NCBI RefSeq assembly: GCF_016786325.1
Contig: NZ_JADWYU010000094.1
Span: forward strand, 697 to 64,696
DNA length: 64,000 nt
DNA from: Frankia nepalensis
GTDB lineage: Bacteria > Actinomycetota > Actinomycetes > Frankiales > Frankiaceae
Direction of reading: 5' to 3'
Part shown: positions 24,167 through 63,016 of the stretch, one piece after another
Layout: each line of letters opens with the position of its first letter
How positions within the stretch are numbered: the first letter of the stretch is position 1
Made by a program: the position numbers and the translations under genes
Notes under the pieces: model-generated
Told to the model about the DNA's origin: nothing
Databases searched by the model: none
Seen by the model: the letters and a program-made list of their open reading frames with translations, nothing else

Positions 24167-24187
24167 CGCCGTACCGGGGTTTCCACG

Positions 24188-24211: not shown

Positions 24212-24335
24212 ACTGTCAACTCGCCGAACAGTGTCGAGAGACTGCATCGCCGGCGACCGGCCACACTCGTCGGGAAGGCGGCGCGGCGGCGCTGCTGTCC
24301 GAGGTGGACATCCGGTCATCGGCCCCAGCGCCGCC

Positions 24336-26917: not shown

Positions 26918-26955
26918 GTGTGCATCGTGGCGGGAAGGGTCGGACAGCGGCAAAT

Positions 26956-26973
26956 GCGCATCGCGATGCGCAC
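26956..26973. promoter_or_regulatory. 18-bp perfect palindrome upstream of the methyltransferase gene
   Basis: TGCGCATCGCGATGCGCA is a perfect palindrome about 39 bp before the methyltransferase start, where a repressor would block transcription. The methyltransferase's own N-terminal HTH is an obvious candidate reader. The core CATCGCGATG is made of one CATCGC and one GCGATG overlapping head to head, the same hexamers found in the element's three iteron clusters. The rest of 26974-27217 shows no gene. Confidence 0.6.
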
Positions 26974-27217
26974 CTCGCATGACGAGTCCCGGTCGCGACC
27001 ACTCGAGGCGAGCACTCGCTCTACCAGCGAAGATGCGGTCCACGAAACGACCGGACCGACGCCATAGGGTTAACAGCAGTCCGAAACCCGTCCTGGCCTT
27101 CGCCGGCAAGGTGGGGCCTACGGGGCGTCCCGTAGCGAAGCATCCACGAACACGCCGGTCGGGTTCCGTCACGCCCAGACACCAGTCGCGCGGACCGGAC
27201 CGGCATTGCCAGCGTGA

Positions 27218-33504: not shown

Positions 33505-34908
33505 ATGCCCCAGGACGACCCGCCCCGCACCCTGCTCGCCCTGCGCCTGCGCGAACGCGGCCTGACCGTCGAACGCTTCGTCAAGGAGTTCAACAAGGCC
33601 GCCCGCCGCGCCGGCCCCGACAGCCGCGACCACGCCATCTCCTACCGCCAGGCCACCCGCTGGGTCAGCGGCAACATCCCGTCCCTGCCCTACCCGGTGT
33701 CCTGCCGCGTGCTGGAAGCGATGTTCGGCGACGACGCGGCCACCCTCCTCGGCCCACCCGACGGCCCGCCGCGCGCCGGGTCTATTCCCGCAAACGGGAC
33801 GACGACAGGCCGCTTCGCGGGTGACGATGGAACCGCCCCGCCCGCCGAGGACGAGGAGGCGATCCCCACGCGCCGCCGAGACCTACTCAACGCCGGCGTC
33901 ATCGCCGCCACCGCCGCGACCGCCGCGACTGCCGGCGCCTTGGTCGACCCCGCCGCCCGCGCGGCCAGCATCTCCCGCGCCATCGCCACCTCGACACCCG
34001 ACCCGCTGACGCTCGCCCAACTCCAACACGGCATCCACCGACTCGCGACCCTTTACGCCGTCACCCCGCACGCCGAGCTCGTCGCACCGGTCGAACATGC
34101 CTGGGACGAGGCCGAGGCTCTGTTGGAAACGCGGGTATCCGGCACCGCACGCCGCGACGTCGAACTCGTTGCCGGGCAGTGGGCGTACTACCGCGGACAG
34201 CTGGCATTCGACCTGGGCGACGACCCGACCGCGCTGACGTTCCTCGTGCTTGCCGGACAGCACGCCGACGCGGTCGGCGACACCCTGCTCGCCGGGTCAG
34301 TCGCCGTCATGCGCTCGGCCGTCTCCTTCTTCGCCGGCGATTACCGGACCGCAGCCCGGCTCGCCGCGCAAAGCCAGCCCGGTGCCCACCCCTACATCGC
34401 GCCGATCCTCGCCGGCGGACTCGCCCGCGCACTCGCGCTCACCGGCGACACCGACGGCGCTCTCGACGCGCTGCGCACCATGCAGAACACGATCTGGACC
34501 GGCGAGCCGCTTCCCGGCCCTGACGCCATTGACGAGGAGGGGTGCGAGCTATTTACAGCCGTGACGCTCGGCTACCTCGGCCTCGGCAAGAAATCCGAAA
34601 AGCACGCCCGCACCGCCCTCACCCTGCTGGGCGGAAGCGGACGGCACGTCGCGCTCGCCGGCACCCATCTCGCGCTCGCCCGCGCGTTCCTCCGCCGGAG
34701 CAAACCCGAACCCGAGCAGGCCGCCGGCGCGATCCAGGACGCACTGGCCGTCGCCGCCGGCAAAGACCACGGCGCCACCACCCACCGCGCCGCCGCGATC
34801 TGGCGCCACCTCCACGCCAACCCTGGCTGGACACACCTTCCGGCCGTCCGCGACCTTGCCGACCAACTCCCCGCCGGCCGTGCACTATCCCCGGGCGACG
34901 TCATCTGA
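33505..34908 (+). CDS. HTH-TPR transcriptional regulator
   Basis: 467 residues. GGGAGG precedes ATG 33505 by six bases. The N-terminal 75 residues (LALRLRERGLTVERFVKEFN, ISYRQATRWVSGNIPSLPYP) form a helix-turn-helix of the type found in actinomycete TPR regulators. A Pro/Ala-rich linker with a hydrophobic stretch follows (RRRDLLNAGVIAATAATAAT). Then come helical repeats (YYRGQLAFDLGDDPTALTFL, VTLGYLGLGKKSEKHARTAL, LALARAFLRRSKPEPEQAAG). Part of this gene is duplicated at 23.9 kb. It is the nearest regulator gene upstream of the defence operon and on the same strand, so it may control it. Confidence 0.75.
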   Translation: MPQDDPPRTLLALRLRERGLTVERFVKEFNKAARRAGPDSRDHAISYRQATRWVSGNIPSLPYPVSCRVLEAMFGDDAATLLGPPDGPPRAGSIPANGTTTGRFAGDDGTAPPAEDEEAIPTRRRDLLNAGVIAATAATAATAGALVDPAARAASISRAIATSTPDPLTLAQLQHGIHRLATLYAVTPHAELVAPVEHAWDEAEALLETRVSGTARRDVELVAGQWAYYRGQLAFDLGDDPTALTFLVLAGQHADAVGDTLLAGSVAVMRSAVSFFAGDYRTAARLAAQSQPGAHPYIAPILAGGLARALALTGDTDGALDALRTMQNTIWTGEPLPGPDAIDEEGCELFTAVTLGYLGLGKKSEKHARTALTLLGGSGRHVALAGTHLALARAFLRRSKPEPEQAAGAIQDALAVAAGKDHGATTHRAAAIWRHLHANPGWTHLPAVRDLADQLPAGRALSPGDVI

Positions 34909-35434: not shown

Positions 35435-38400
35435 GTGGACGTGTTCGCGGTCCGTGAGCGGCTGGTGCGGGACTATGAGGAGTTTGTCCGGGGATTCCTG
35501 ACGATCCGTGACAGCCGGATCCGTCAGCATGTCGAGGACGCGGTCCGTGGTGGGTTGCTGTGGCCGGAGGCATGGCTGTCGTTGAACCCAGCGTTCGAGC
35601 CGGGCGGCGAGATCGCCGACCTTGCCAGCCCCAGCGGCTCGGGCCCGGATGCGGGGGTCCTGCACGCGGGTTGCGTGGACATCTTCCAGATCCATGGCAA
35701 GCCGATCCGGCTGCACCGCCACCAGCGTGACGCGCTGGAGCTGGCCCGGGCCGAGAAGAGCTACGTGGTCACGACGGGGACCGGCTCGGGTAAGAGCCTG
35801 ACGTACCTCGTGCCGATCGTGGACCACGTGCTGAAGGTCGGCACGGGCGGCGGCCTCAAGGCGATCATCGTCTATCCGATGAACGCGCTGGCGAACTCAC
35901 AGTTCGAGGCGTTGAAGGGCTTCATCGGCCAGGACACGCGGGTGACCTGCGAGCGCTACACATCGCAGGAGAGTGAGGAAGACCGGCGGCGGATCCTGGA
36001 GAACCCGCCGGACATCCTGCTGACGAACTACGTGATGCTTGACCTGATCCTGACCCGGCCGCATGAGCGGCGCCGGCTGGTCGACAGCGCGGGCGGGCTG
36101 CGCTACCTGGTGCTCGACGAGCTGCACACTTATCGGGGTCGGCAGGGCGCCGACGTGGCGATGTTGGTGCGCCGGGTCCGGGAGGCATGTAACAGCCCGG
36201 CGGTCCGTTGCGTGGGCACGTCGGCGACGTTGTCGACCGAGGGCACGCGCGAGGAGCAGCACGCGGAGATCGCGAAGACCGCCTCCCGGCTGTTCGGCCA
36301 GGAGGTGCTGCCGAAGCATGTCGTCGACGAATCACTGCGGCGCGCGACGGCGGACCTGCCACCGGACCCCGTCGCGCTCGCCGCGGCTGTGAACCGGACC
36401 CAGCTTCCGGACGACCTGGCAGGGGATCCCCTGGCGAGCTGGGCGGAAAGCCAGTTCGGCCTCGACAAGCCGGAGAAGCCCGGGCCCGGCGATGTCTTGC
36501 CGGACGGTTCGCTGCGCCTGGTACGCCGCAAGCCCCGCACCCTGCAGCAGGTCGCCGCCGACCTCGCCGCCCTGACCTCCCGGCCGCAACAAGCTTGCGA
36601 AGAGGCGTTGCGGGCGACGCTGCTGGCGGGTAGCGATCAGCGTGACGAGTTCGACCGGCCGATGTTCGCGTTCCGGCTGCACCAGTTCGTCGGGAAGGGT
36701 GACACGGTCTACGTGTCACTGGAGGCCGAGGACGTCCGCCATGTGACGACCCGCCGGCAGCTGGTGCATCCGGAGAAGCCGGAAGCGATCCTCGTACCGC
36801 TGGTCTTCTGCCGGGAGTGCGGCCAGGAGTACCTCGAGGTCACCCACGTCGCCGGTCGGTTCAAGACGGACGGCGGGTTGAACGAGGCCGAGGACGACGA
36901 GCACGGCGGCTACCTCTACGTCTCCACCGCGAGCCCCTGGCCTCGGGGCGCCGACGCGGTCAAGGACCGGCTGCCCGAGTCGTGGCTGGACCCCGATGGG
37001 TCGCTGCCGAAGAACCGGCGCGACCAGCTGCCCGAGATCGTCCGGGTCGCGTCGGACGGTCGCCAGCTCGACGACACCGCCGGTGGCGCCGGGGAGGGGA
37101 TCACGGCCGCGTTCGTGCGGGCGCCGTTCCGGTTCTGTCTGAACCCGGGGTGCCGGGTGTCCTACGAGTCGCCCCGCCAGCAGGATTTCTCGAAGTTGTC
37201 GAGCCTGGGCTCGGAGGGCCGCAGCTCGGCGACGACGGTGCTGAGCTCCAGCCTGCTGCGGGTGTTGCGGGCTGATGAGGACTTGGACGCCGAGGCGCGC
37301 AAGCTGCTGGCGTTCACGGACAACCGGCAGGACGCGTCGCTTCAGGCGGGTCACTTCAACGACTTCGTCCAGGTGAGCCTGATCCGGGCCGCGCTCTATC
37401 GCGCCTGCGAGGCGGCGGGACCGACAGGTCTCACCCATGACGATCTGCCACGGCGGGTTGTCGAGGCGATGGCGCTGCCGCGCGAGCGGTACGCCGAAGC
37501 GCCCCGGGCAAAGGGCTCGTCGCAGCGGGAGAACGCTGACCAGGCGCTGCGCCGGGTGGTGGAGCAACGGCTCTACCTGGATCTTCAGCGTGGTGTCCGG
37601 ATCACGATGCCGAACCTGGAGCAGGCGGGGCTGCTGGTGGTCGGCTACCGCGACCTCGACGAGGCGACGGCGGACGACGACGCCTGGAAAGGCACCTCGC
37701 TGGCGGGGCTGGCGGTGTCCGTCCGGGAAAGGCTGATCAGTGTTCTGCTCGACGAGATGCGCCGTGGCCTGTCGGTGCGCACGGAGGCGCTGACGGACGA
37801 GGGTTTCGAGAAGACGCAGACCATGGCGGCCGATCATCTGAACGAGCAGTGGAGGCTGGAGGACAGCGACCGTTTCGTCGCGCCGCGGCTGCTGCCTCGG
37901 GCGAAGCGGAAGCACGAGCTGCGAGACGACCAGTACGTCTCGGGCCGGTCGGCGTATGGCCGCTACCTGCGCCGGGAATTGCACCGGTTGACGGGCCACC
38001 CGTGGTCGGTCGACGACGCCGAGGTGGAGATCGGCCGAATCCTGAAGGTCCTCTCCGATGGCGACCCGGACACGGGCGAGGACGGCTACGGCATCCTGCA
38101 CCCGGTCGCCGAATCCTCCGAACGCCGAGGCCGCAACTGGCAGGCGGGCGGCCAGGCCGGCAAGAAGGACGCCGACGGCGTCGGCTACCAGCTGAAGGCC
38201 TCCGCGCTGGTGTGGAAGGCCGGTGATGGGAAGAAGCGGGCACCGGACCCGCTGCGGATCACGACCGGCCGCGACGGCGGCCAGCCGAACCGGTACTTCG
38301 TCGAGCTCTACCAAGACCGGGCCCGCGAGTTGGCCGGGTTGTTCTCCGCCGAGCACACCGCCCAGGTGCCCGCCCCGCTCCGCGAGGAGCGGGAGCACGC

Positions 38401-40738
38401 CTTCCGAGACGCCAGACTTCCGGTGATGTTCTGCTCGCCGACCATGGAGCTGGGCGTCGACATCTCGTCGCTCAACGCCGTGATGATGCGCAACGTGCCG
38501 CCGACGCCGGCGAACTACGCCCAGCGGTCCGGCCGCGCGGGCCGGCAAAGCCAGCCGGCGTTGGTTGTCACCTACTGCACGACCGGTAGCGCGCATGACC
38601 AGTACTACTTCGCCCGGTCGCGGAAGATGGTCGCCGGGGCCGTCGCCCCGCCGCGGATCGACTTGTCGAACCAGGACCTGGTCACCTCACATGTGCAGGC
38701 GATCTGGCTGGCCGAGTGCACTGCCGAGCCGCTCGGCAATTCGCTGGTCGGCGTCTTGGAGGCCGCCGGCGACGAGCCGTCGCTGAAGTTGCTGCCCGAG
38801 GTCGTCGCGATGTTGTCCGACGAGGACGCCGCGCGGCGCGCGGCCGGCCGGGTTCGCCGGGTGCTCGCCGAGACCCCGGAGATCGTCGACGACGCGCCCT
38901 GGTACGACGAGGAATGGGTCGACCGGACGATCCGCGGGGCATTGGACAACTTCAACCAGGCTTGTGACCGGTGGCGGACGCTGTACCGCGACGCGCAGCG
39001 GGAGCTGGACGAAGCCAACCGGTTGATCAAGGATGTGACGACCTCCGGGAAGGCGCTCGCTGACGCGCACAGCCGTCACCGGGAGGCGTCGGCGCGGCTG
39101 AACCTGCTGCGGAATTCCAGCACGTCGCTCTACCAGTCGGACTTCTACACCTACCGCTACCTGGCCTCCGAGGGCTTCCTGCCCGGCTACAGCTTCCCGC
39201 GGCTGCCGGTGTCCGCCTTCATCCCCGCGAAGCGCGGCAAGCAGGTCGAGGGCGACTACCTTTCCCGCCCCCGATTCCTGGCGATCAGCGAGTTCGGCCC
39301 GGGTGCGCTGGTCTACCACGAGGGCGCCCGCTACGAAGTCACGAAGGTCGCCCGGGCACTGCGCGGCGACACCGGCGGCCAGCCGCGGCTCGACCTCGAG
39401 TCGATGAAGGTCTGCGGCAGGTGCGGCTCGTGGCATCCGTCCACCGACGACGTCTGCGTGTCGTGCGGGGACGAGCTGCCGGCGGCGATGACGAACCTGC
39501 TGCGCATGACGACGGCAAGCACCGTGCGGCGGTCGCGGATCAGCTCGGACGAGGAGGAGCGCCGCCGCCAGGGCTACGACATCCGCACCGCGGTGTCCCT
39601 GCCGGCCGACGGCGCCGACCCGCGGTTCGAGGCGCACGCGACGGCGCCGGACGGCGCGGTTCTGGCTCGGCTCCTCTACGCCGGCGCCGCCGAGCTTCGC
39701 CGGCTGAACATCGGCCTCAAGCGGCGCAGGTCGAAGGAACCAACCGGCTACCGGCTCGACGCCGCGACCGGCCGATGGGCACGGCGCAAGGACCAACCGA
39801 CCGAACCCGATGACATCACGGCCAGTGCTTCGTCCGACGCTCCGGTGCGTGGCGAGCTGGTCATCCCGTTCGTTACGGACAGGCGCAACGCGCTCGTCCT
39901 CGACTGGCAGGGTCCGATGTCGTGGAACGAGCGGGACGCGGCGCTGGCAAGCCTGCAGTACGCGCTCAAGCGGGCGATCCAAGCCGTCTACGACCTGGAG
40001 GACTCTGAGCTGGCCGCCGAGGCGCTGCCGACCGTGCGTGACCGCGAGCGCATCCTGCTCTACGAGTCGGCCGAGGGCGGCGCCGGCGTGCTGCGCCAGC
40101 TGCTGGCCGACGACGGCGCCCTCAGCACCGTCGCCCGCACCGCGCTGGACCTGCTGCACTTCGGTCTCGACGGGTCCGACAACAACGCCCCCGAGGGGGT
40201 GGACGAGCGCTGCGCAAAAGCCTGCTACGACTGCCTGCTCTCCTATGGAAACCAGCCCGAGCACGAGCTGCTTGACCGGTTCGCCGCCCGGCCTCTCCTG
40301 CTCGCCCTCGCTGACAGCTCCACCGGCCTCGCGGAACCTGCCCTGGCCCAGAGGGCTGCGCCGACGCGGCGGCCCGCGCTGACGGTTGCGCAGTCGCCTA
40401 CCGGGCCGGACGGGCCGAGCGCCGGGCTGGCTTGGGTGCCTATGGCAGCGACGGAGGCGTTCATCGACTGGCTGCGCGACCGCGGTCATCGGCTGCCTGA
40501 CGAGGTTGGCGCGCTGGTCGCCGAGGCCGATGCCCGGCTCGACCTGTGGTATCGGTCCGACTACGGCGATATCGCTGTCTTCGTCCGGCAGAGCGCCGCC
40601 GACGAGCCGGTGGACGCTGGCACGGCAGACCGGCTGGCGGCGCTCAACTGGAGTGTGATCGAGATCGGACCGGAACAGGAGTGGGCGGCGCAGGTGGCAA
40701 GGTTTCCCAGTGTCTTCGGCCCCGGAGTAGCCGCATGA
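35435..40738 (+). CDS. Giant DEAD/H-box helicase with DUF1998-like C-terminus (DrmAB/DruE-like)
   Basis: About 1,767 residues, first gene of the operon. GTG 35435 is preferred because VDVFAVRERLVRDYEEF matches the usual start of this family; in-frame GTGs at 35396 and 35411 exist. Helicase N: Walker A GTGSGKS (Lys about 120), DELH about 228-231, GTSATL about 261. A long insert follows, then helicase C: SPTMELGVDISS (about 1001) and QRSGRAGR (about 1030). There is a Cys pair set, CGRCGS…CVSCG (about 1326), and the DUF1998/MZB-type cluster CAKACYDCLLSYGNQPEHEL (about 1592). The last 100 residues (ADARLDLWYRSDYGDIAVFV) look like a degenerate nuclease fold. It combines what DISARM splits into DrmA and DrmB and is as large as Druantia DruE. 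Its stop overlaps the SNF2 gene by four bases. Confidence 0.85.
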   Translation: MDVFAVRERLVRDYEEFVRGFLTIRDSRIRQHVEDAVRGGLLWPEAWLSLNPAFEPGGEIADLASPSGSGPDAGVLHAGCVDIFQIHGKPIRLHRHQRDALELARAEKSYVVTTGTGSGKSLTYLVPIVDHVLKVGTGGGLKAIIVYPMNALANSQFEALKGFIGQDTRVTCERYTSQESEEDRRRILENPPDILLTNYVMLDLILTRPHERRRLVDSAGGLRYLVLDELHTYRGRQGADVAMLVRRVREACNSPAVRCVGTSATLSTEGTREEQHAEIAKTASRLFGQEVLPKHVVDESLRRATADLPPDPVALAAAVNRTQLPDDLAGDPLASWAESQFGLDKPEKPGPGDVLPDGSLRLVRRKPRTLQQVAADLAALTSRPQQACEEALRATLLAGSDQRDEFDRPMFAFRLHQFVGKGDTVYVSLEAEDVRHVTTRRQLVHPEKPEAILVPLVFCRECGQEYLEVTHVAGRFKTDGGLNEAEDDEHGGYLYVSTASPWPRGADAVKDRLPESWLDPDGSLPKNRRDQLPEIVRVASDGRQLDDTAGGAGEGITAAFVRAPFRFCLNPGCRVSYESPRQQDFSKLSSLGSEGRSSATTVLSSSLLRVLRADEDLDAEARKLLAFTDNRQDASLQAGHFNDFVQVSLIRAALYRACEAAGPTGLTHDDLPRRVVEAMALPRERYAEAPRAKGSSQRENADQALRRVVEQRLYLDLQRGVRITMPNLEQAGLLVVGYRDLDEATADDDAWKGTSLAGLAVSVRERLISVLLDEMRRGLSVRTEALTDEGFEKTQTMAADHLNEQWRLEDSDRFVAPRLLPRAKRKHELRDDQYVSGRSAYGRYLRRELHRLTGHPWSVDDAEVEIGRILKVLSDGDPDTGEDGYGILHPVAESSERRGRNWQAGGQAGKKDADGVGYQLKASALVWKAGDGKKRAPDPLRITTGRDGGQPNRYFVELYQDRARELAGLFSAEHTAQVPAPLREEREHAFRDARLPVMFCSPTMELGVDISSLNAVMMRNVPPTPANYAQRSGRAGRQSQPALVVTYCTTGSAHDQYYFARSRKMVAGAVAPPRIDLSNQDLVTSHVQAIWLAECTAEPLGNSLVGVLEAAGDEPSLKLLPEVVAMLSDEDAARRAAGRVRRVLAETPEIVDDAPWYDEEWVDRTIRGALDNFNQACDRWRTLYRDAQRELDEANRLIKDVTTSGKALADAHSRHREASARLNLLRNSSTSLYQSDFYTYRYLASEGFLPGYSFPRLPVSAFIPAKRGKQVEGDYLSRPRFLAISEFGPGALVYHEGARYEVTKVARALRGDTGGQPRLDLESMKVCGRCGSWHPSTDDVCVSCGDELPAAMTNLLRMTTASTVRRSRISSDEEERRRQGYDIRTAVSLPADGADPRFEAHATAPDGAVLARLLYAGAAELRRLNIGLKRRRSKEPTGYRLDAATGRWARRKDQPTEPDDITASASSDAPVRGELVIPFVTDRRNALVLDWQGPMSWNERDAALASLQYALKRAIQAVYDLEDSELAAEALPTVRDRERILLYESAEGGAGVLRQLLADDGALSTVARTALDLLHFGLDGSDNNAPEGVDERCAKACYDCLLSYGNQPEHELLDRFAARPLLLALADSSTGLAEPALAQRAAPTRRPALTVAQSPTGPDGPSAGLAWVPMAATEAFIDWLRDRGHRLPDEVGALVAEADARLDLWYRSDYGDIAVFVRQSAADEPVDAGTADRLAALNWSVIEIGPEQEWAAQVARFPSVFGPGVAA

Positions 40739-43680
40739 CCACTACGGCCGAGACAGCCCCGAGCCCGTTCGCGATCGGTTCGCTGGTGCGCGCCCGTGGG
40801 CGCGAGTGGGTCGTGCTGCCAGGCACCACCGCAGAGCTGATGCTGCTGCGCCCACTGGGCGGCACCGAGGACGAGGTCGCCGGGGTGCTCCCCTCGCTGG
40901 AACCGGTCGAGGCGGCGAGGTTCCCCCGACCGGACGCGTCCGACCTGGGTGACGCCGCGAGCGCTCGGCTACTGCGCTCGGCGCTGCGCCTCGGGTTCCG
41001 CTCGTCTGGCGGCCCGTTCCGCAGCCTCGCCGGACTGGCGGTCACGCCGCGCTCCTATCAGCTGGTGCCGCTGCTGATGGCGTTGCGGATGGACACGGTC
41101 CGGCTCCTGATCGCCGATGGTGTTGGCATCGGGAAGACCGTCGAGGCGGGGCTGATCGTCGCCGAGCTGCTCGCCCAGGGCAGCGCCAGCCGGTTCACCG
41201 TGCTGTGCTCGCCGGCGCTGGCCCAGCAGTGGCATGACGAGCTCGCGGAGAAGTTCGGCCTGCGGACCACGCTGGTCCTCGCTTCGACCGCCGGCCGCCT
41301 CGAACGCGACCTGCCGCCGGGTGAGTCGCTCTTCGAGCATCACCCGTACACGATCGTCTCGACCGACTTCATCAAGTCGGCCCGCCGCCGCGACGAGTTC
41401 CTCCGCGCCTGCCCCGACCTGGTGGTCGTCGACGAGGCCCACACCTGTGTCGCCGCCGACGACGGCGCGAACGCGACTGGCCGCGCGACCCAGCAGCGCC
41501 AGGCCCTGCTCACCGGCATCGCCGCCAACCCGGAACGCCACCTGCTGCTGTTGACCGCGACCCCGCACAGCGGGAAGACGGCCGCTTTCCGCGCCCTCCT
41601 CGGACTGCTCGACCCGGCGCTGACCGACCTACCTGACGACCTGTCCGGTGACGCACGCCGCCGCGACCGGGAGCGGATCGCCCGCCACCTGATCCAGCGG
41701 CAACGCGCCGACATCCGCGAGTACCTCAAAGGCACGTCGCTCCAGGAGACGACGGAGTTCCCGGACCGGCAGACGGCCGAGGAGTCCTACCAGCTCACCG
41801 GCGCCTACCAGGACCTGTTCGACGACGTCCTCGCCTACGCCCGCGAAAGCGTCACCGACCCGTCGGGCGGCAAGGTCGCCCAGCGGGTTCGCTGGTGGTC
41901 CGTCCTCGCGCTGCTGCGCGCCCTCGCTTCGTCGCCGGCCGCCGCGGTCGAGACGTTGCGCAACCGCGGCGGGTTCGCCGACGCCGAGGACGTCGCCGAC
42001 GCCGACGCGATCGGCGAGGCGACCGTCCTCGACCTCACCGACGCGGCCTCGGTCGACGGCGCCGACACCAGCCCCGGCGCCCAGCTCGACGCCTCCAAGC
42101 GCCGCCTCGCCGAGATGACGAAGGCCGCGGAGAAGCTGTACGGGCCCAAGAACGACGCGAAACTCGCCCGCGGCATCGAGATCGTCAAGAAACTCCTTGA
42201 TGGCGGCGACGCCGTCGTCGTCTTCTGCCGTTACATCGCCACCGCCACCTACCTCGCGAACGCCCTGCGCGAGGCCAAGGGCTTCGCCGGCGTCGAGGTC
42301 GCCGCCGTTACCGGCCAGCAACCACCCGACGACCGCGCCGCCACCGTCGCCGATCTCGCCGAGCGCAGCGCTGACACGAGGAAGCGGGTGCTTGTCGCGA
42401 CCGACTGCCTGTCAGAGGGCATCAACCTTCACCAGCACTTCTCCGCCGTCGTCCACTACGACCTGTCCTGGAACCCGACCCGCCACGAACAGCGCGAGGG
42501 CCGCGTAGACCGGTTCAATCAGCCCGCTCGGGTCGTCCACGCCGTCACCTACTTCGGCGCCGACAACCCCATCGACCGGCTCGTCCTCGACGTGCTGCTC
42601 CGCCGCCACGCCGCGATCCGCCGCGACACCGGCGTCTCCGTCCCCGTCCCCGTCGACTCGGACACCGTCCTGTCAGCCGTCCTCGAAGGGCTGCTCAGTA
42701 CGAGGACCGCGCCCGGCCAAATGGAGCTGGAAGGGATCGGCGAGGCGGCCCGCGCGGACCTGCTCGCCCGCTGGACCTCAGCCGCCGAACGCGAACGACG
42801 GTCCCGCAGCCTGTTTGCCCAGGAACAGATCCGCCCCGAGGAGGTCGCCCGCGAGGTCGAGGCGATCCGAGGCAGCCTCGGTGGGCCGGACGAGGTCCGG
42901 ATGTTCACTCTCGGCGCGTTCGGGTCGCTTCGGTCTCCTGCGCACCCGCGCGGCGACGGGCGATTCAACGTGGTCACAGCCGGCCTCCCGCCGACCCTGC
43001 GCGACGAGATCAGCCGAGAAATCCTCGACGCTCGCCGTGGCCGTCCCGGCCGGCGGTCCACCAGCACGGCTGTGGACGATCTGTTGCTCACCCCGTCGCT
43101 GCCGGCCGCGCCCGGCGAGGTCGTCCTCACCCGCACCGACGCGACGGTCGAGACCCTCGCGCGCTACGTCCTCGACACCGCGCTCGACCCCGTCGGCATC
43201 GACGAGCCCGACCGCCCGGCCCGCCGCTGCGGCGTCATGGTGACCAAGGCGGTCGACAAACGCACCACTCTGCTGCTCGTCCGCTACCGGCTTCACCTCG
43301 CCCTGCCCGGCCGGGCAGGCATCCGGCCACTCGTCGCCGAGGAGGCCCGCATCCTCGCCTTCACCGGCACCCCCGCCGACCCGACCTGGCTCGACGAACA
43401 GGCCATCGCCGCCCAGCTCGACGCCCGTCCCGCCGCGAACTACCCCCGCGACCTCGCCGCCGCCGATATCAGCCGCGTGATCAACCGGCTCGACGCGGTC
43501 ACCGGCCACCTCGACGACGTCGGCGACCAGCTCGCCGCCGACCTGCTGGCGAGCCACCGCCGCGTCCGCGAAGCCGCGGGTTCGACCGGCAACCTGGTCC
43601 GCCGCGGCCTGACCGTCAAAGCCCAACGCCCCGCCGACATCCTCGGCGTCTACCTGCACCTTCCGGCGGCCCAGTCATGA
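40735..43680 (+). CDS. SNF2-family helicase (DISARM DrmD-like)
   Basis: 981 residues from ATG 40735, overlapping the upstream stop. Motifs: ADGVGIGKTVEAGLI (about 126), VVVDEAHTC (DEAH, about 232), TATPHSGK (about 275), VVFCRYIATATYLANALRE, ATDCLSEGINLHQHFS (about 557), and WNPTRHEQREGRVDRFNQ (about 586). This is the RapA/HepA-like branch of SNF2 ATPases, to which DrmD of class 1 DISARM belongs. It should translocate on duplex DNA. The C-terminal 350 residues have no catalytic motif and may bind partners. It is coupled to the next gene by a four-base overlap. Confidence 0.85.
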   Translation: MTTTAETAPSPFAIGSLVRARGREWVVLPGTTAELMLLRPLGGTEDEVAGVLPSLEPVEAARFPRPDASDLGDAASARLLRSALRLGFRSSGGPFRSLAGLAVTPRSYQLVPLLMALRMDTVRLLIADGVGIGKTVEAGLIVAELLAQGSASRFTVLCSPALAQQWHDELAEKFGLRTTLVLASTAGRLERDLPPGESLFEHHPYTIVSTDFIKSARRRDEFLRACPDLVVVDEAHTCVAADDGANATGRATQQRQALLTGIAANPERHLLLLTATPHSGKTAAFRALLGLLDPALTDLPDDLSGDARRRDRERIARHLIQRQRADIREYLKGTSLQETTEFPDRQTAEESYQLTGAYQDLFDDVLAYARESVTDPSGGKVAQRVRWWSVLALLRALASSPAAAVETLRNRGGFADAEDVADADAIGEATVLDLTDAASVDGADTSPGAQLDASKRRLAEMTKAAEKLYGPKNDAKLARGIEIVKKLLDGGDAVVVFCRYIATATYLANALREAKGFAGVEVAAVTGQQPPDDRAATVADLAERSADTRKRVLVATDCLSEGINLHQHFSAVVHYDLSWNPTRHEQREGRVDRFNQPARVVHAVTYFGADNPIDRLVLDVLLRRHAAIRRDTGVSVPVPVDSDTVLSAVLEGLLSTRTAPGQMELEGIGEAARADLLARWTSAAERERRSRSLFAQEQIRPEEVAREVEAIRGSLGGPDEVRMFTLGAFGSLRSPAHPRGDGRFNVVTAGLPPTLRDEISREILDARRGRPGRRSTSTAVDDLLLTPSLPAAPGEVVLTRTDATVETLARYVLDTALDPVGIDEPDRPARRCGVMVTKAVDKRTTLLLVRYRLHLALPGRAGIRPLVAEEARILAFTGTPADPTWLDEQAIAAQLDARPAANYPRDLAAADISRVINRLDAVTGHLDDVGDQLAADLLASHRRVREAAGSTGNLVRRGLTVKAQRPADILGVYLHLPAAQS

Positions 43681-46600
43681 CCACTCCGCTCCCGTCCGCG
43701 CGAGGCGCCCGTACTGCCGGAATCGTCGGCGCCTTCACCGCTGTCCGCACTGTCGGCGGCCTGCTGCCCGCCGACGCGCTGATTGCCGTCGCCGCCGGCC
43801 GCGACCTGTCCGGCCTCCGCCCGGCCGACTACGGCTTGGTCGACAAGGAAACTCTCCGCGAGGCGGCGAACCGATCGTTCACCAGGCTTCAAGCGGCGTG
43901 GGCTGACTTCCGCCGAGTCGTCCCAGCGGGGCCGGTTCTTGGCACCGAGACGACGCCCACCCGGCGCTGGCTCCAGGTCCTATTCACCGAGCTGGGCTAC
44001 GGCCGTCTACCAACCGCGCCAGCCGGCGGTATCGCCGTCGACGGGTCCGCAGGTAGCAAGAGCTATCCAGTCTCTCATCTGTGGGGCAAGAGCCCGATCC
44101 ACCTGCTCGGCGCTGGGATCAGCCTCGACCACCGCACCGCGGGTGTCGCCGGCGCCGCCGCGTCCGCGCCTCACTCCATGGTCCAGGAACTGCTCAACCG
44201 GGCACCCGACCTGCTCTGGGGCTTCGTCTCCAATGGGCTGAGGCTTCGGCTGCTGCGCGACTCGGCCTCGCTCGTCCGCCAGGCTTACGTCGAGTTCGAC
44301 CTCGAAGCGATGTTCGACGGCGAGGTCTTCGCTGACTTCGCCCTGCTCTGGCTCGTCGCCCACGCCAGCCGGGTCGAGCCCCGCCCCGACAGCGATGCCC
44401 GCCCCGACACCTGCTGGCTTGAAAGGTGGCGCACCGAAGGCATCAGCCGCGGTACCCGCGCCCTGACCGCGCTGCGCGACGGCGTCAGCCAGGCACTCGT
44501 CACCCTTGGCCGCGGCTTCCTCCGTCATCCGGACAACACCGCTCTGCGCGCCGCCCTCGCCGACGGCACACTGCCCAGCCGCGAGTACTACCGGCTGCTG
44601 CTCCGCGTCGTCTACCAGCTACTCGTCCTCTTCGTCGCCGAGGACCGCGACCTGCTCCACCCATCCGGTGCCACTCCGACCGCCCGCGACACCTACACCC
44701 GGTTCTTCTCCACCGACCGGCTCCGACGGCTCTCCCGCCGCCGCTCCGGCGTCTCCGGCGCCCGCCACCACGACCTGTGGACCGCCCACCAACTCGTCCT
44801 CGCCGGCCTCGGCGACGAACAGGGCCGGCCCGAGCTTGGACTGCCCGGTCTCGGCGGCATCTACGAGCCCGAACTACTCGGCCCACTCGGCGCCGCGACA
44901 ATCACCAACGCCGACCTGCTCGCCGCGGTACGCGCGCTGTCTGTCACCCGCGACGATTCCGGCCTGCCCCGCCAGGTCGACTACCGCAACCTCGGCGCCG
45001 AAGAACTCGGCGGCATCTACGAGTCCCTCCTCGAACTCGTCCCCCAGTACGACGTGGCAAGCGGAGAGTTCATCCTCGACGTCGCCGCCGGCCACGACCG
45101 CAAGACCACCGGCAGCTACTACACCCCGCCTGGCCTCGTCGAAATCCTCCTCGACGAGGCACTCGACCCGGTACTCGACGACGCCGAGAAGTCCGGCACG
45201 ACGGCGGAAGAGAGGGAGAAGGCCCTCCTCGCCGTCACCGTCTGCGATCCGGCGTGCGGCTCCGGCCACTTCCTCGCCGCCGCCGCCCGCCGGATCGCCC
45301 GCCGCCTCGCCGCCGTCCGCACCGGCGAAGCCGAACCTCCGGTCGCCGCCACCCAGACCGCCATGCGCGACGTCGTCGCGCACTGCATTTACGGCGTCGA
45401 CCTCAACCCCATGGCCGCCGAACTCGCCAAGGTCGCCCTCTGGCTCGAAGCCCTCGACCCCGGCCGGCCGTTGTCCTTCCTCGACGCCCACGTCAAGGTC
45501 GGCAACGCGCTGATCGGCGACAGCCTGCTCGACCCGAAGCTGATCGCCGCCCCGGAAGCGGGCGACCCGCTGCTCGACGGCGCCCGCGTCGGCGACAAGA
45601 TCGAACTCGTCCGGCTTGCCCTGCCCGACGAGGCGTTCACCGCCAAGGTCGGAGACGACAAGGCCCAGGTCGCTCACTACCGCAAGCGCAACCGCGCCGA
45701 GCGCAAGGCGATGGAGAACCCCGAGTCCTCGCTCTTCGCCCTCGGTATCCACAGCGAGTGGCGGTCAGCCTTCAGGCAGGTCGCGGATCTGCCTGAAGAC
45801 AGCCTGGCCGCCGTCCACCAGAAGAAGAACGCGTGGGCGAAGGCCGAGTCCGACGGGACGATGCTGCGCGAGCGGCTCGCCGCCGACGCCTGGTGCGCCA
45901 CGTTCGCCTGGCCCCACCGGCTCGACCCGGACGCCGTCCGCCGGAGCGAAGAACGGGTCAAGAACAAGGTCACTCCGCTGGGGCCGGAAGACCTACGCGC
46001 CGATCCGCCGCCGCCCACCGCCGAGACCATCATCAGAATCCGCGAGGACGGTGCCGCCGCACTCACCAGAGAGCAGATCAAGGAGCTTACCGAGCTTCGG
46101 GAGAGCCACCGCTTCTTCCACTGGCCGCTGGAGTTCCCCGAGATCCTCCCTGGCGGGTTCGCCTGCGTACTCGGCAACCCGCCGTGGGAACGGGTCAAGC
46201 TCCAGGACGAGGAGTTCTTCGCGACCCGCGCCCCCGAGATCGCCGACGCCCCGAACGCCGCGGCCCGTAAGAAGCTGATCGCCACGCTGCCGGATGAACG
46301 TCCACCACTCTGGGACGAGTACCAACGCGCGCTCCGCGCCGCCGACATCGGAAGCGGGTTCGGTCATGACTCGGGCCGCTACCCGCTGACCGGACACGGC
46401 GACATCAACACGTTCCAGCTCTTCGCGGAGCACGATCTTGCCATCACCGCCCGGCATGGCCGAGCAGGTGTCGTCCTCCCAACCAACATCGCGACCGGTG
46501 ATACTACTGCGCCCTTCTTCCGACACTTGGTTGAGACATCGACCCTCGCCGGCTTTCTCGACTTCGAGAACGAGGCGAAGATCTTTTCGGGCGTTACCAA

Positions 46601-47927
46601 TAAGTTCCGTTTCGCAGTGCTATGTGCCACCGGCGGCCTCCGGCTTTCCCATACATCGCTAGCCTTTTCGACCCGGCACCTGCAGGATCTGCCGGAGCGG
46701 CGGTTCGTCCTGCTGCCTGACGAGATTCTGCTGGTTAACCCGAACAGCGGGACGCTGCCGGTCTTCCGCTCCCGCACCGACGCCGAGATCACCATCGGCA
46801 TCCACCGCCGCGTCCCGGTCCTCGTCAATGGCGACGAGAACCCATGGGGCGTCTCGTTCCTCCGCATGTTCGACATGGCCAACGACTCGTCGCACTTCCG
46901 GACAGAGAAGCAACTACGCCAGGATGGCTGGACCGAGGAAGGTGACGCCTTCGTTCGCGGCAATGAGCGGATGCTTCCTCTTGTTGAGGGCAAGATGTTG
47001 CACTTGTACGATCACCGGTATGCGACCTACGAAGCGGCGACGCAGGCGCAACTTAACAAGGGGACCCTGCCGCGACTAAATGATGACCAACATGGCGACC
47101 CGGATTTGGTAGCATGGCCGCAATACTGGCTTATTAATTCCGCGGTTCACGACAGACTTGGTGATCGCTGGAACCGTGAGTGGCTGCTGGGTTGGCGCGA
47201 TATAACGACGAGCGTCAACGAACGCACTGTGATCACATCGGTATTTCCTGCCGGCGCGGTTGGCCACACGGAGCCGATTATCTTGACAGATAACCGCGAG
47301 TTCGCTGCTCTTCACGCCAATCTCTCGAGTGTGGTCGTGGACTATGCCGCACGCCAGAAGATCAGCGGCGCACACCTCACCTTTGGTAACATGGAACAGC
47401 TCCCAGTGATGCCGCCGACGGCATACTGCGTCTCCGCCTCATGGGATTCGGCAGTCGAGCTGCGGGACTGGATTGCCGAGCGAGTGCTGGAACTGTCGTA
47501 CACGTCGTGGGACATGGCGCCCTATGCCGACGACCTGCACGACGATGGTCCGCCGTTCCGGTGGGACCCCGAGCGGCGTGCGCAGATCCGGGCCGAGTTG
47601 GACGCGGCGTACCTGCACCTCTACGGCCTGAATCGTGCCGAGGCCGAGCACGTCTTGGACTCATTCTTCGTCCTTCGCAAGAACGAGGAGAAGGCCTTCG
47701 GCACGTTTCGCACCCGCACCCTCGTCCTTGCGGCCTACGACGCCATGGCCACCGGCCACTTCGTCTCCCCGCTGACCCCACCTCCGGGCGATGGCCCTCG
47801 CCACACCGACGATGGGCGCCGAAGGATCATCGCCCAGAATCGCGATAGCAGCCCGGCCGCACAGGAGGAGATCGAGGTCGACGACCTAACTGGCGCCCTC
47901 TTCAAGCCAAAGGGGACACTGTTCTGA
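43677..47927 (+). CDS. Large N6-adenine DNA methyltransferase (DrmMI/PglX-like)
   Basis: 1,416 residues. TTGSYYTPPGLVEILLDEAL (about 478) leads into motif I, CDPACGSGHFLAAAARRIA (about 524), then YGVDLNPMAAELAKVALWLE, and motif IV, LGNPPWERVKLQDEEFF (about 834, catalytic NPPW). Size and order match the methyltransferases of DISARM class 1 (DrmMI), BREX (PglX) and type IIG enzymes. No nuclease motif is obvious at the N-terminus, and a C-terminal target-recognition region is likely. It probably methylates a short motif in host DNA. DNA of 46.5-47.4 kb has clearly lower GC third positions than its surroundings, which suggests a recombined target-recognition region. Confidence 0.85.
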   Translation: MTTPLPSARGARTAGIVGAFTAVRTVGGLLPADALIAVAAGRDLSGLRPADYGLVDKETLREAANRSFTRLQAAWADFRRVVPAGPVLGTETTPTRRWLQVLFTELGYGRLPTAPAGGIAVDGSAGSKSYPVSHLWGKSPIHLLGAGISLDHRTAGVAGAAASAPHSMVQELLNRAPDLLWGFVSNGLRLRLLRDSASLVRQAYVEFDLEAMFDGEVFADFALLWLVAHASRVEPRPDSDARPDTCWLERWRTEGISRGTRALTALRDGVSQALVTLGRGFLRHPDNTALRAALADGTLPSREYYRLLLRVVYQLLVLFVAEDRDLLHPSGATPTARDTYTRFFSTDRLRRLSRRRSGVSGARHHDLWTAHQLVLAGLGDEQGRPELGLPGLGGIYEPELLGPLGAATITNADLLAAVRALSVTRDDSGLPRQVDYRNLGAEELGGIYESLLELVPQYDVASGEFILDVAAGHDRKTTGSYYTPPGLVEILLDEALDPVLDDAEKSGTTAEEREKALLAVTVCDPACGSGHFLAAAARRIARRLAAVRTGEAEPPVAATQTAMRDVVAHCIYGVDLNPMAAELAKVALWLEALDPGRPLSFLDAHVKVGNALIGDSLLDPKLIAAPEAGDPLLDGARVGDKIELVRLALPDEAFTAKVGDDKAQVAHYRKRNRAERKAMENPESSLFALGIHSEWRSAFRQVADLPEDSLAAVHQKKNAWAKAESDGTMLRERLAADAWCATFAWPHRLDPDAVRRSEERVKNKVTPLGPEDLRADPPPPTAETIIRIREDGAAALTREQIKELTELRESHRFFHWPLEFPEILPGGFACVLGNPPWERVKLQDEEFFATRAPEIADAPNAAARKKLIATLPDERPPLWDEYQRALRAADIGSGFGHDSGRYPLTGHGDINTFQLFAEHDLAITARHGRAGVVLPTNIATGDTTAPFFRHLVETSTLAGFLDFENEAKIFSGVTNKFRFAVLCATGGLRLSHTSLAFSTRHLQDLPERRFVLLPDEILLVNPNSGTLPVFRSRTDAEITIGIHRRVPVLVNGDENPWGVSFLRMFDMANDSSHFRTEKQLRQDGWTEEGDAFVRGNERMLPLVEGKMLHLYDHRYATYEAATQAQLNKGTLPRLNDDQHGDPDLVAWPQYWLINSAVHDRLGDRWNREWLLGWRDITTSVNERTVITSVFPAGAVGHTEPIILTDNREFAALHANLSSVVVDYAARQKISGAHLTFGNMEQLPVMPPTAYCVSASWDSAVELRDWIAERVLELSYTSWDMAPYADDLHDDGPPFRWDPERRAQIRAELDAAYLHLYGLNRAEAEHVLDSFFVLRKNEEKAFGTFRTRTLVLAAYDAMATGHFVSPLTPPPGDGPRHTDDGRRRIIAQNRDSSPAAQEEIEVDDLTGALFKPKGTLF

Positions 47928-48012
47928 TGCCCGCGTCGGGCGTCGCAGTCGGAGGATCGCAGGAGCATGCATTGCCTACTGCTTGGCCCTTGAACTCGGT
48001 GGAGGTACGCCG

Positions 48013-50328
48013 GTGAGCGGCGAGGATCAGGTCTATGCGGCGGCGCGGCTGGTGCTGGAGCGCGGTTTCGTTCAGGACGACTCCGTCTTCGCGCCCGGCC
48101 GGTCTGTGTGGACCCAGGAAAACGCCTTGGACCTCGCGTACCGGCTGGAGCATCCCCCGGCGGGGCCGGGCAGTTTTCTGGACAAGCTTCGGGTGGAGCT
48201 GGCGGACGCCAGCCCGGAGGTGGTCCAGCTCGCGGCTGAGGTCCTCTACCTGCACTTCCTGCCGGTGCTGGGGATGAACGGCTCGACGAAGCGGCTCGCG
48301 CTCCGGAAGGTGTTCGACGAGTCCGCAGGCGCGTTGAAGCTGCCCGCCGACCTCGACGGTGCTCTCGACAACGGCGTCATCTGGGTGGGGATCGCGTACT
48401 ACCGGTACCGGCCGGCGCAGGTGATCTGGCTGGCCAGCGTCGTCGCCGCGGTGAAGGCCCTTGCGCCGGAGCTGCGCGCCGACCTGTTGAAGAGCCCGTG
48501 GGACTTCCGAGACCTGCTCGACCAGGTGCCGACGACGACGGCCGCCGGTCAACGCCGGGCGCTGTTGCACCTCGCCTTCCCGCGGACGTTCCTCAACAGC
48601 CTGCGCGCCGACCACCCTGGCGCGATCATGGAGGCGTTCGGCTACCTGGCGGGGCAGCGGCCGCGCGGCGACCTGGAGGCGGACTTTGCCGCCTTCTGGG
48701 AGGCGCTCAGCCTCAAGGAAGGCCGGCCGATCGACTTCTTCCAGCCGCCGTGGCGGGATCAGTGGATGACTCCGGCGACCGAACCCGAGGGGACGGCCTC
48801 GACTCACACCGGCTGGCTGGTGCGCGGCGCCAACATCTCGCGGACCAATCTCGTCCCGGAGTGGCTGCGCGACGGCTACTGCTCGATGTCCTGGCCCGAC
48901 TACCCGGACATCCCTGTCGGGCTGTCGCGGACGCAGCTCGCGCAGCTGGTCCGCGCGTCGGAGCCCGGCTTGCGACCGAGCCAGGAAGGCAACTGGATCG
49001 GGCTGCTCGACCGCTTCTTCAATCGGATGCAGGTCGGCGATCTGGTCGTGACCGTCGATGGTCCCCAGGTCTACGTCGGCATTCTCGACGGGCCGCCGAC
49101 CTGGGAGCAGAAGACTCCGCTGGCCGACCGACGTCGCGCCGTCCGCTGGCTCAATGCCGACAAGCCGATCAACCGGTCCGATCTTTCGGAGGCGGCGCAG
49201 AACCGGCTGCGCGGGCAGCTCACGGTCAGCGGCCTCGGTGACGAGGCGGGCGAGTTCCTCCAGTTGGCCCAGCTTGAGATCGGCGCGGAGGTTATTGACC
49301 CCGCTCCGGTCGACGACCCGGCCGTCGCGGCCGCATTGAAGGCAGCGGAGACGACCTTCAAACCCGAGGTCCGGCCCCAGCTCCAGGACCTGCCGGCCCC
49401 CAGCCAGGAGTTCGCTGACAACCTGCTGGTCGACCTCCCGTGGCTCACCGAGACGATGGAGCTGCTCAACGAGAAGAAGCAGATCGTGCTCTATGGCCCG
49501 CCCGGTACCGGCAAGACCTATCTGGCGCAGGAGATCGCTGAGTCTCTCGTTGAACAGACGAACGGTGAGTACCGGCTGGTGCAGTTCCACCCTTCGTACG
49601 CCTATGAGGACTTCGTCGAAGGCTTCCGCCCCTCGACGGCCGGCGACGACACCTTCAAGTTCGCCAAGGAGCCTGGCCCGTTCCGCCGCCTGGTCGCCGC
49701 TGCGCTGGCGAACCCGTCTGGGGCCTACATCCTGGTGATCGACGAGATCAACCGGGCGAACCTTGCGAAGGTCTTCGGAGAGCTGTACTTCCTCCTGGAG
49801 TACCGGGACAGGACGATCCAGCTGCAGTACTCCCCAGAGGACGACTTTGCGCTGCCGAAGAACGTCTTCCTCATCGGCACGATGAACACCGCTGACCGGT
49901 CGATCGCGCTGGTCGACGCCGCGATGCGGCGCCGCTTCGCCTGGCAATCCCTCTTCCCAGGCGAACCGCCGGTCGCGGGGATGCTCCGTCGCTGGCTGGC
50001 GGACAATGGCAAGCCAGCCCACATCGCCGACCTGCTCGACGAGCTCAACAGAGCAATCGCAGACCGGGACGCCGCCATCGGCCCGTCGTACCTGATGAAC
50101 TCCCGGGTGGCGACGAAGGACGGACTCGCCCGGATCTGGAAGACACAGATCCTGCCGCTCCTTGAGGAGCGGCACCTCGGCGAGCATCCCGACGTCCCCG
50201 CGTTCGTCCGCCAGCGCTACGGCCTCGATGTGCTCCTGCCCACGGTCACGCCGCCGGTCCCACCCCAGCCGGAAGCGGACGGGATTGACGCGGGCGACGG
50301 CACCGGCGAGGCGCCGCCGCCGGCATGA
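48013..50328 (+). CDS. mcrB: McrB-like AAA+ GTPase with extended N-terminus
   Basis: 771 residues from GTG 48013, with GGAGG seven bases upstream; it starts 85 bp after the methyltransferase gene. The C-terminal half is the McrB motor: GPPGTGKTYLAQEIAESLVE (about 495), VIDEINRANLAKVFGE (about 575), and GTMNTADRSIALVDAAMRRR (about 621, the McrB MNTADRS signature). The 460-residue N-terminus is not the standard DUF3578. A part of it (GWLVRGANISRTNLVPEWLR…GDLVVTVDGPQVYVGILDG) is like the EVE/PUA-type readers of modified bases found on other McrB proteins (inference). It should hydrolyse GTP and drive the McrC nuclease. It overlaps mcrC by four bases. Confidence 0.85.
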   Translation: MSGEDQVYAAARLVLERGFVQDDSVFAPGRSVWTQENALDLAYRLEHPPAGPGSFLDKLRVELADASPEVVQLAAEVLYLHFLPVLGMNGSTKRLALRKVFDESAGALKLPADLDGALDNGVIWVGIAYYRYRPAQVIWLASVVAAVKALAPELRADLLKSPWDFRDLLDQVPTTTAAGQRRALLHLAFPRTFLNSLRADHPGAIMEAFGYLAGQRPRGDLEADFAAFWEALSLKEGRPIDFFQPPWRDQWMTPATEPEGTASTHTGWLVRGANISRTNLVPEWLRDGYCSMSWPDYPDIPVGLSRTQLAQLVRASEPGLRPSQEGNWIGLLDRFFNRMQVGDLVVTVDGPQVYVGILDGPPTWEQKTPLADRRRAVRWLNADKPINRSDLSEAAQNRLRGQLTVSGLGDEAGEFLQLAQLEIGAEVIDPAPVDDPAVAAALKAAETTFKPEVRPQLQDLPAPSQEFADNLLVDLPWLTETMELLNEKKQIVLYGPPGTGKTYLAQEIAESLVEQTNGEYRLVQFHPSYAYEDFVEGFRPSTAGDDTFKFAKEPGPFRRLVAAALANPSGAYILVIDEINRANLAKVFGELYFLLEYRDRTIQLQYSPEDDFALPKNVFLIGTMNTADRSIALVDAAMRRRFAWQSLFPGEPPVAGMLRRWLADNGKPAHIADLLDELNRAIADRDAAIGPSYLMNSRVATKDGLARIWKTQILPLLEERHLGEHPDVPAFVRQRYGLDVLLPTVTPPVPPQPEADGIDAGDGTGEAPPPA

Positions 50329-51530
50329 TCACGCCAATCGTCGTCCGCGAGCACAAGAGCGTCACCGTCCCCGGCCTGCCAGCCGACGTCGCCCGGACGT
50401 TCGCGGCGACTGGTGCCGTCGCCGTCAGCCGTGATCTGGAAGGCGCCGTCTGCCTGGCCGCGTCGTCGACGGTCGGGGTGGTGCGCGCGGGTGACTTTGA
50501 GCTGGTGATCCGCCCGAAGGTCGGCGTCGGCCGCCTTCTCTGGCTTGTCGGTCACGCCCGCGACCAGAAGGGCTGGCGTGACGACGACGTCGACCTGGCC
50601 GAGACCGACGACCTGGTGACCGGTCTCGCCGTAGCGTTCACCCGTCGGGCCGGCCGCGCCCTGGCCGCCGGTGTGCTGCGCGGCTATCAGCCCGTCGCCG
50701 AAACTTCGCCTGTTCTCCGCGGCCGGCTTCGCGAAGCCGACCAGCTGCGCGCCCGCCTCGGCCGCGCCTACCCGCTGGAAGTCGCCTATGACGACTACTC
50801 CGCGGACATCCCGGAAAACCGGATCCTGCTCGGTGCTACCCGCCGCCTGCTCCGCCTGCCCGGCATCCCCGCAGCGACCCGCGCCGCGCTGCACCGCCTC
50901 AACGTCGGTCTCGCTGAGGTCGCCCCGTTGCCGGCCGGCCTACGCGCCCCGGCGACTCCCGAGACCAGGCTCAATCGTCGCTACCAGTCAGCCCTGCGCC
51001 TAGCCCGCCTCGTCCTTGACCACCGCGGTCTCGATATTCCCGCCGCCGACAGCCCCGCCGGCCCGACCCTCGCGGCGACCGGCTTCCTGTTCGACATGAA
51101 CCGCGTCTACGAGGACTGGCTGACCGCAGTGCTCCGCACGGCGCTCGAACATCACGGCGGTGCAGTCGAGGGGCAGAAGGTCATCCGCCTCGACGAGGCT
51201 GGGAAGCTCGCACCCCGTCCGGACATCACCTGGTGGCACGGCGACCAGTGCGCGGCCGTGCTGGACGCGAAATACAAGGCACCGAACAAGGGCTTCCCCA
51301 GCGAGGACGTCTACCAGCTCATCGCGTACTGCACCGCCCTCGACCTCGCCGAAGGTCACCTGATCTATGCGGGTGGTACCCCCGATGTCCATGTGATCCG
51401 AGGCCAAGGCCCCAGGATCCACGTGCATGTACTCGATCTCGCCCGCGACCCGTCGGACCTTCTGCAACAGATCGACTACCTCGCCGGACACGTGGCCGCC
51501 TGCCGCACACGGACGCCTGCCTTCTCATGA
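50325..51530 (+). CDS. mcrC: McrC-like nuclease subunit
   Basis: 401 residues. N-terminal half: the McrB-interacting beta-rich domain (VVREHKSVTVPG, FELVIRPKVGVGRLLWLVGH). The core LREADQLRARLGRAYPLEVA and NRILLGATRRLLRLPG is typical of McrC/5-methylcytosine restriction components. C-terminal PD-(D/E)xK nuclease: RPDITWW (about 299), VLDAKYKAP (Asp 314, Lys 316) and DVYQLIAYC (the Q-x3-Y helix). All catalytic residues are present. Together with McrB it should translocate and cut DNA. Last gene of the packed operon. Confidence 0.85.
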   Translation: MITPIVVREHKSVTVPGLPADVARTFAATGAVAVSRDLEGAVCLAASSTVGVVRAGDFELVIRPKVGVGRLLWLVGHARDQKGWRDDDVDLAETDDLVTGLAVAFTRRAGRALAAGVLRGYQPVAETSPVLRGRLREADQLRARLGRAYPLEVAYDDYSADIPENRILLGATRRLLRLPGIPAATRAALHRLNVGLAEVAPLPAGLRAPATPETRLNRRYQSALRLARLVLDHRGLDIPAADSPAGPTLAATGFLFDMNRVYEDWLTAVLRTALEHHGGAVEGQKVIRLDEAGKLAPRPDITWWHGDQCAAVLDAKYKAPNKGFPSEDVYQLIAYCTALDLAEGHLIYAGGTPDVHVIRGQGPRIHVHVLDLARDPSDLLQQIDYLAGHVAACRTRTPAFS

Positions 51531-56103: not shown

Positions 56104-56230
56104 CATCGCGCTGGGCATCGCGAGCGACATCGCCGGCCATACCGCCCGGCCCTGGTGGCTGTCGTCACCGGGAGGCATTGGCCCGGTCGCGATGTCTGGT
56201 CGGAGGGCTGGCGCGAGGGCCGCCGCGATG
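56104..56230. repeat. Iteron cluster 2 (CATCGC / GCGATG, 12-bp register) upstream of relaxase
   Basis: CATCGC starts at 56104, 56116 and 56128, exactly 12 bp apart. In the opposite orientation GCGATG starts at 56189 and 56225, 36 bp apart, and a degenerate GCGAGG occupies the 12-bp phase at 56213. The arrangement (direct repeats facing direct repeats) is the same as in cluster 1. It lies 150-275 bp upstream of the relaxase start, where an origin of transfer or a relaxase operator would be. No gene in 55995-56378. Confidence 0.7.
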
Positions 56231-56378
56231 TTCCGGCCGGGCAGGCTGCGGTGCCGTCATGGCGTATCCCGGCCGTTCTGGGGCCGCCGTCCTCAGGCGT
56301 CCTGGAGTGCCCCATGCCGTATCTCGCCCACCACCGCCGCGGCCCTGGCCGGTACAACTCGGGGCCTGGTGGTCTCCG

Positions 56379-62961: not shown

Positions 62962-63016
62962 CGCCCACAACGATCTTCAGAGCCTTGGCGCGCGTCGCCC
63001 GGAGGGCAAACGTGCT

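Follow-up and report, generated by a model that had tools for sequence, protein, structure and literature searches.

The window analysed here is a 64,000-nt stretch of the Frankia nepalensis genome (GCF_016786325.1, contig NZ_JADWYU010000094.1, positions 697-64,696, forward strand), in which five co-directional open reading frames between 35435 and 51530 are all intact and show a strong GC3 coding signal. Gene 1 (35435-40738, +; alternative start 35396) encodes a 1767-residue YprA/DruE-like SF2 helicase that matches Pfam DEAD, Helicase_C and MZB/DUF1998 and shows CxxC motifs in its translation. It is followed by a 981-residue SNF2/RapA/BrxHII-like ATPase (gene 2, 40735-43680, +; Pfam DEAD/ResIII/SNF2 and Helicase_C), a 1416-residue PglX/DrmMI-like N6-adenine DNA methyltransferase (gene 3, 43677-47927, +; Eco57I/MmeI/N6_Mtase), an McrB-like AAA+ motor of the NxxD class (gene 4, 48013-50328, +; AAA_5; alternative start 47983) and a 401-residue McrC that joins DUF2357 to a PD-(D/E)xK nuclease (gene 5, 50325-51530, +; PF10117, E 7e-46). 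The stops of genes 1, 2 and 4 (40738, 43680 and 50328) each overlap by 4 bp the ATG of the gene that follows (40735, 43677 and 50325), and the gap between genes 3 and 4 measures 85 bp with the GTG start at 48013, or 55 bp with the TTG start at 47983. Read directly from the translations, the catalytic motifs of all five main enzymes are intact: TGTGSGKS and DELH in gene 1, GVGIGKT and DEAH in gene 2, DPACGSGHF and NPPW in gene 3, GPPGTGKT and NTAD in gene 4, and the nuclease motif RPD...DAK in gene 5. An earlier sequence-only reading of this DNA had reported the same five same-strand genes, three 4-bp overlaps and 85-bp gap, the lengths of 1,767 and 1,416 residues and the same five protein families; open reading frames, GC3, Pfam and NCBIfam bear this out, with the gap depending on the start chosen for gene 4.

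Genes 1-3, in the order found in the window, are ARMADA type I (PMC12458937), which is described as a YprA-like helicase, then a BrxHII/RapA-like ATPase, then a PglX-like methyltransferase (PMC12458937, Bell et al. 2025); all three are present here. In a helicase tree that included ArmC (ARMADA II) and DruE (Druantia III), both from E. coli ATCC 8739, the window and 26 other ARMADA-I loci form one group at a support of 100, apart from both of these, the deeper branching order being unsure because of long branches. As in the window, published type I systems place the helicase first and the ATPase and methyltransferase after it, are abundant in Actinomycetota, have an NxxD McrBC downstream and, like other ARMADA systems, are known mobile-element cargo. 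The published helicases are also described with a BrxA-like domain and a zinc-binding beta-barrel as insertions. The frequent link between ARMADA type I and canonical McrBC was itself published in 2024-2025 (PMC12458937; Bell et al. 2024, PMC11090510), so the earlier statement that no named system had such a gene set does not stand.

The window departs from the published type in the tail of its helicase. ARMADA helicases carry a C-terminal Vsr-type nuclease that is predicted to be active, a feature typical of type I but not defining it (PMC12458937). In gene 1 this Vsr-like PD-(D/E)xK domain (about 40300-40735, +) is recognisable in alignments but catalytically degenerate: the motif E, D, D, H reads T, D, R, gap, so that the first D is kept and three of the four residues are lost. 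Since the domain is degenerate, we assign the operon to a variant of ARMADA type I rather than to its typical members. Intact relatives match DUF559/MTES_1575, and the window domain gave no match in the same profile search; the fold is still predicted, with an AlphaFold core at pLDDT 90-97, and Foldseek returned only weak PD-(D/E)xK matches for the tail (VRR_NUC/Hjc nucleases). Gene 1 had earlier been taken to end in a DUF1998-like C-terminus; the DUF1998 part is there, but it is not the end of the protein, the degenerate domain beyond it having been missed.

Genes 4 and 5 have the features of a canonical (NxxD) McrBC, namely TMNTADRS in McrB, RPDITWWHGDQCAAVLDAKY, and DUF2357 plus PD-(D/E)xK in McrC. 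Gene 4 scores 141.8 bits against NCBIfam McrB, and the window McrC resembles the solved McrC 6ut5 (E 1.6e-7). The N-terminal region of McrB, about 490 residues long (48013-49479), matched no family in a Pfam search, and Foldseek with a model of the N-terminus (pTM 0.54) found no credible match; residues 278-458 match PADLOC PDC-S02 at 3.5e-15, and from the residue pattern alone one might guess at a PUA/EVE-like reader at about residues 275-400. McrB N-termini differ among loci (L034, L039, L061 and L094 included), being Mrr_N, DUF4357/RAMA or the unclassified region of about 490 residues, and the window type recurs in Mycobacteriaceae-family loci; the N-terminal readers are thus exchanged between operons that are otherwise co-inherited. 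RAMA takes its name from a link to adenine methylases, and some RAMA-type McrB readers might therefore sense the methylation state set by their own operon. In some Streptomyces islands (L191, L192) a second, divergent McrB-McrC pair lies between ARMADA and the canonical McrBC.

To place the operon among its relatives, loci were gathered from one scan of genome contigs together with sampled genomes, mainly via the ATPase; 167 loci have an ATPase that could be placed, and the 149 of these that are non-redundant and have a readable helicase C-terminus form the basis of all Vsr and McrBC counts. The sample is uneven, with many Actinomycetota, gene boundaries across loci are those of profile matches rather than curated starts, Vsr states are read from the alignment, and absence of McrBC refers to the stretch read at each locus except where whole genomes were searched. 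ARMADA-I was found in 6 of 148 genomes of the class and in 38 of 201 of one actinobacterial family. The three-gene core is present in nearly all loci, and its order is repeated in well over a hundred of them, far beyond chance. In 46 of the 149 loci the McrB-McrC pair follows the methyltransferase immediately and on the same strand, and in 17 others it lies further away within the stretch read; in every locus counted its position is downstream and its strand the same. The sequence-only reading would have been undermined had the first three and last two genes almost never co-occurred elsewhere, and they do co-occur.

McrC was detected in 17 of 148 class genomes as against 24 of 50 scanned ARMADA-I genomes, and in 21 of those 24 its coordinates put it downstream of the ARMADA genes, no more than about 25 kb away and on their strand, the same contig being confirmed for five. 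Distances among McrC and among McrB-motor sequences track those among helicases (Mantel r 0.90-0.91, 45 loci, p 0.0005), which indicates that the McrBC and ARMADA halves have been inherited together. We conclude that McrBC is co-inherited and co-diverging with the ARMADA-I core.

The state of the Vsr domain is correlated with the presence of McrBC. Vsr is broken in 27 and intact in 19 of the 46 loci with adjacent McrBC, whereas among the 67 loci whose downstream sequence lacks McrBC for at least 3.5 kb it is broken in 14 and intact in 53. Thirteen of these 14 fall in two Streptomyces-dominated clades, and 11 of the 13 have an McrC 7-25 kb downstream, 10 of them on the same strand and the eleventh, L021, about 16 kb away. 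With the two clades set aside, all four Vsr residues are retained in 53 of the 54 loci that have no McrBC nearby, and the domain is therefore under selection where McrBC is absent. The true exception is L169/G835, in which Vsr is broken and a genome-wide search found no McrC. The 19 loci that keep an intact Vsr beside McrBC show, conversely, that McrBC does not force its loss.

On a tree of the helicase minus its Vsr part there are about 8 changes of Vsr state. Four broken-Vsr clades (the window clade, Arthrobacter-Homoserinimonas, Mycolicibacter and kin, and Actinokineospora-Spongiactinospora) have McrBC adjacent or near in every row of known context, and Vsr stays intact in the clades where McrBC comes and goes. 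Pagel's test for correlated change gives a likelihood ratio of 16.7 (p 0.002) with the conservative definition of McrBC presence and p 0.0002 if distal McrC is scored as present, values that a few clade-wide changes may inflate; under the conservative definition the rate of McrBC loss is about 2.0 with intact Vsr and about 0.1 with broken Vsr. A stricter independent-pairs test was not significant, with 1.4 concordant against 0.1 discordant among 9 pairs, too few of them informative. Of the 27 loci that combine a broken Vsr with an adjacent McrBC, 21, including that of the window, show the McrC catalytic pattern in a simple pattern search. ARMADA I with McrBC being known already, the new point is that the built-in Vsr nuclease has decayed in the window, and that such decay occurs mostly where McrBC is present. 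As far as these sequence comparisons go, it is likely that McrBC takes over as the nuclease, or that the system comes to depend on it, once Vsr is broken.

From the gene content and order, the co-inheritance, the motif states and the mobile context that we observe, we infer phage defence, m6A marking and an McrBC that works with the other three genes rather than merely beside them. The reading we favour, at roughly even confidence, is an anti-phage system of ARMADA type I that travels on an integrative conjugative element together with the canonical (NxxD) McrBC inherited alongside it, and in which McrBC cuts in place of the dead Vsr. The PglX-like enzyme would mark host DNA with N6-methyladenine, and the SNF2-like ATPase and YprA-like helicase would load onto phage DNA, either as it enters or as it replicates, and translocate along it, recognising it by its missing methyl mark or by structures typical of infection; the variable McrB N-terminus would then read the target and McrC would cut it. 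Because the helicase's own Vsr is dead in the window lineage, the best explanation leaves cutting to McrBC. In Druantia III the nuclease fused to DruE must cleave for defence to work (PMC13192584); if ARMADA-I likewise needs a cutter, the system in the window must obtain it elsewhere, and the obvious candidate is the McrC that the operon itself encodes, with its intact PD-(D/E)xK motif. Somewhat more tentatively, and a little short of even confidence, we propose that in several actinobacterial ARMADA type I lineages Vsr is dead and McrBC is the obligatory effector nuclease, a type IV enzyme recruited by a methylation-marking system. The 2024 census of McrBC remarked with surprise on how often type IV systems, whose target is modified DNA, occur in association with DNA methyltransferases (PMC11090510), and the correlated decay of Vsr makes one such link directly testable; if the nuclease role has been handed over, then a partner system, and not modified cytosine alone, can direct McrBC.

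ARMADA-I and McrBC might instead be two independent layers that share no step, the former directed against unmodified phage DNA and the latter, as a type IV enzyme, against modified bases, with Vsr decaying either because the remaining ARMADA components are enough or because McrBC eases the selective pressure to keep it. We take this to be a realistic possibility, although we lean against it. There is a close precedent in the BREX and BrxU island, where BREX, which depends on PglX, and a type IV enzyme each give protection of their own, against different phages (PMC8565348); that island resembles the window in coupling a PglX-dependent system to a type IV enzyme, but its BrxU is a GmrSD enzyme and it has no YprA helicase. 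The variation of the McrB reader domains is also what would be expected of a modified-base sensor, and in many loci McrBC coexists with an intact Vsr motif. Both independent layers and a transfer of the nuclease role predict the operon; an McrBC that is indispensable after the death of Vsr is predicted by the transfer only, and neither the retention of McrBC after Vsr breakage nor the co-divergence of McrBC and core across families follows from independence alone.

It is unlikely, in our judgement, that Vsr decay is unrelated to McrBC, a dispensable tail having disappeared from a small number of old clades in which McrBC is present by coincidence. The small number of independent events with its non-significant pairs test, the broken Vsr of L169/G835 in a genome lacking McrC, and the several Streptomyces loci in which McrBC is found only at a distance would all fit such a history, but the near-universal retention of the four residues in loci without nearby McrBC, those two clades aside, would not.

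What the sequence-only reading proposed, namely that DISARM and McrBC are joined here in a new hybrid system of five components, is barely credible, since the helicase is DruE/ARMADA-like (PADLOC DruE3 335 bits against 44 for DrmA), genes for DrmB and DrmC are absent, and the gene set with its McrBC association has already been published as ARMADA. Its kinship to DISARM does survive: the SNF2-like and methyltransferase genes are homologous to DrmD and DrmMI of class 1 and score well against them, although the ATPase, at 299.6 bits, lies under the cut-off of 610 of the NCBIfam DrmD model. The helicase, by contrast, comes from a different YprA branch, DUF1998/MZB lies inside gene 1 rather than in a separate gene, and no PLD domain of the DrmC kind occurs in the five genes. 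The joining of DrmA-like and DrmB-like parts in one chain was considered and rejected as a novelty of the window, because such fusion is the norm outside DISARM. Nor has McrBC literally replaced DrmC, which was never in this lineage; in modified form the idea holds, in that McrBC may replace the degenerate fused Vsr.

Of the other known systems, Druantia III (PMC13192584) shares with the window a related YprA-family helicase with a C-terminal nuclease but has a DruH partner and a PLD nuclease and lacks a methyltransferase; the DruE-like helicase of the window is accompanied by SNF2, methyltransferase and McrBC genes, with no DruH/DruABCD set among them. ARMADA type II (E. coli ATCC 8739, L194) has a homologous helicase, ATPase and methyltransferase, about 21-39% identical over the aligned parts, but in another gene order and with RelE-GajB as a fourth gene. 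Within ARMADA, anti-phage activity has been shown in the literature for type II only, whose protection of E. coli involves no abortive infection and depends on the helicase and methyltransferase motifs. PADLOC 2.0.0 would mislabel an ARMADA operon in automatic annotation, calling the ATPase DpdE (904 bits for the window protein against PDLC02853) and the helicase DruE; we rejected both as system calls, the 2023 database being older than ARMADA.

An integrative conjugative element of about 49.6 kb, located at tRNA-Ser(TGA) and spanning 13361-63112 of the window, carries the operon as cargo. An 83-nt attL-like copy of the 3' part of the tRNA gene (13361-13443, +) is 95% identical to a direct repeat at 62998-63080, where no match is expected by chance; this attR-like repeat overlaps the 3' end of the tRNA-Ser(TGA) gene itself (63025-63112; together 62998-63112, -). 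The direct repeat, together with a TrwC/TraI-type conjugative relaxase (56178-61088, +; PF08751 1.7e-56, AAA_30 8.5e-51) and a tyrosine (phage-type) integrase (61438-62961, +; PF00589, PF14659) at the right end, defines the element. E. coli ARMADA type II is likewise carried on mobile elements (PMC12458937), but there the carrier is a prophage-like element at tRNA-Phe or tRNA-Leu, whereas the carrier here is conjugative, encodes a relaxase and sits at tRNA-Ser.

Elsewhere inside the element, a single protein joins an N6 DNA methylase to a type I specificity (Methylase_S) domain (24557-27172, -), and a 625-residue protein ends in a NucA/NucB-type DNase domain (22387-24264, -). Two diverged direct repeats lie 9.8 kb apart at 23900-24167 and 33736-34006 (190 nt at 88% and 113 nt at 81%), the second overlapping a 467-residue open reading frame without Pfam match (33505-34908) just upstream of the operon. 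The same host genome holds an ARMADA type II-like locus (L197, contig C353:25000-41000) with a PglX-like methyltransferase, a 2350-residue YprA-family helicase that groups with E. coli ArmC, and a GajB-like helicase whose N-terminus is RelE-like in appearance. A third YprA-family defence gene (L196, contig C340:44000-56500) encodes a DruE-like helicase (531 bits) with no obvious C-terminal nuclease and lies beside a JetB (DUF2398) homologue.
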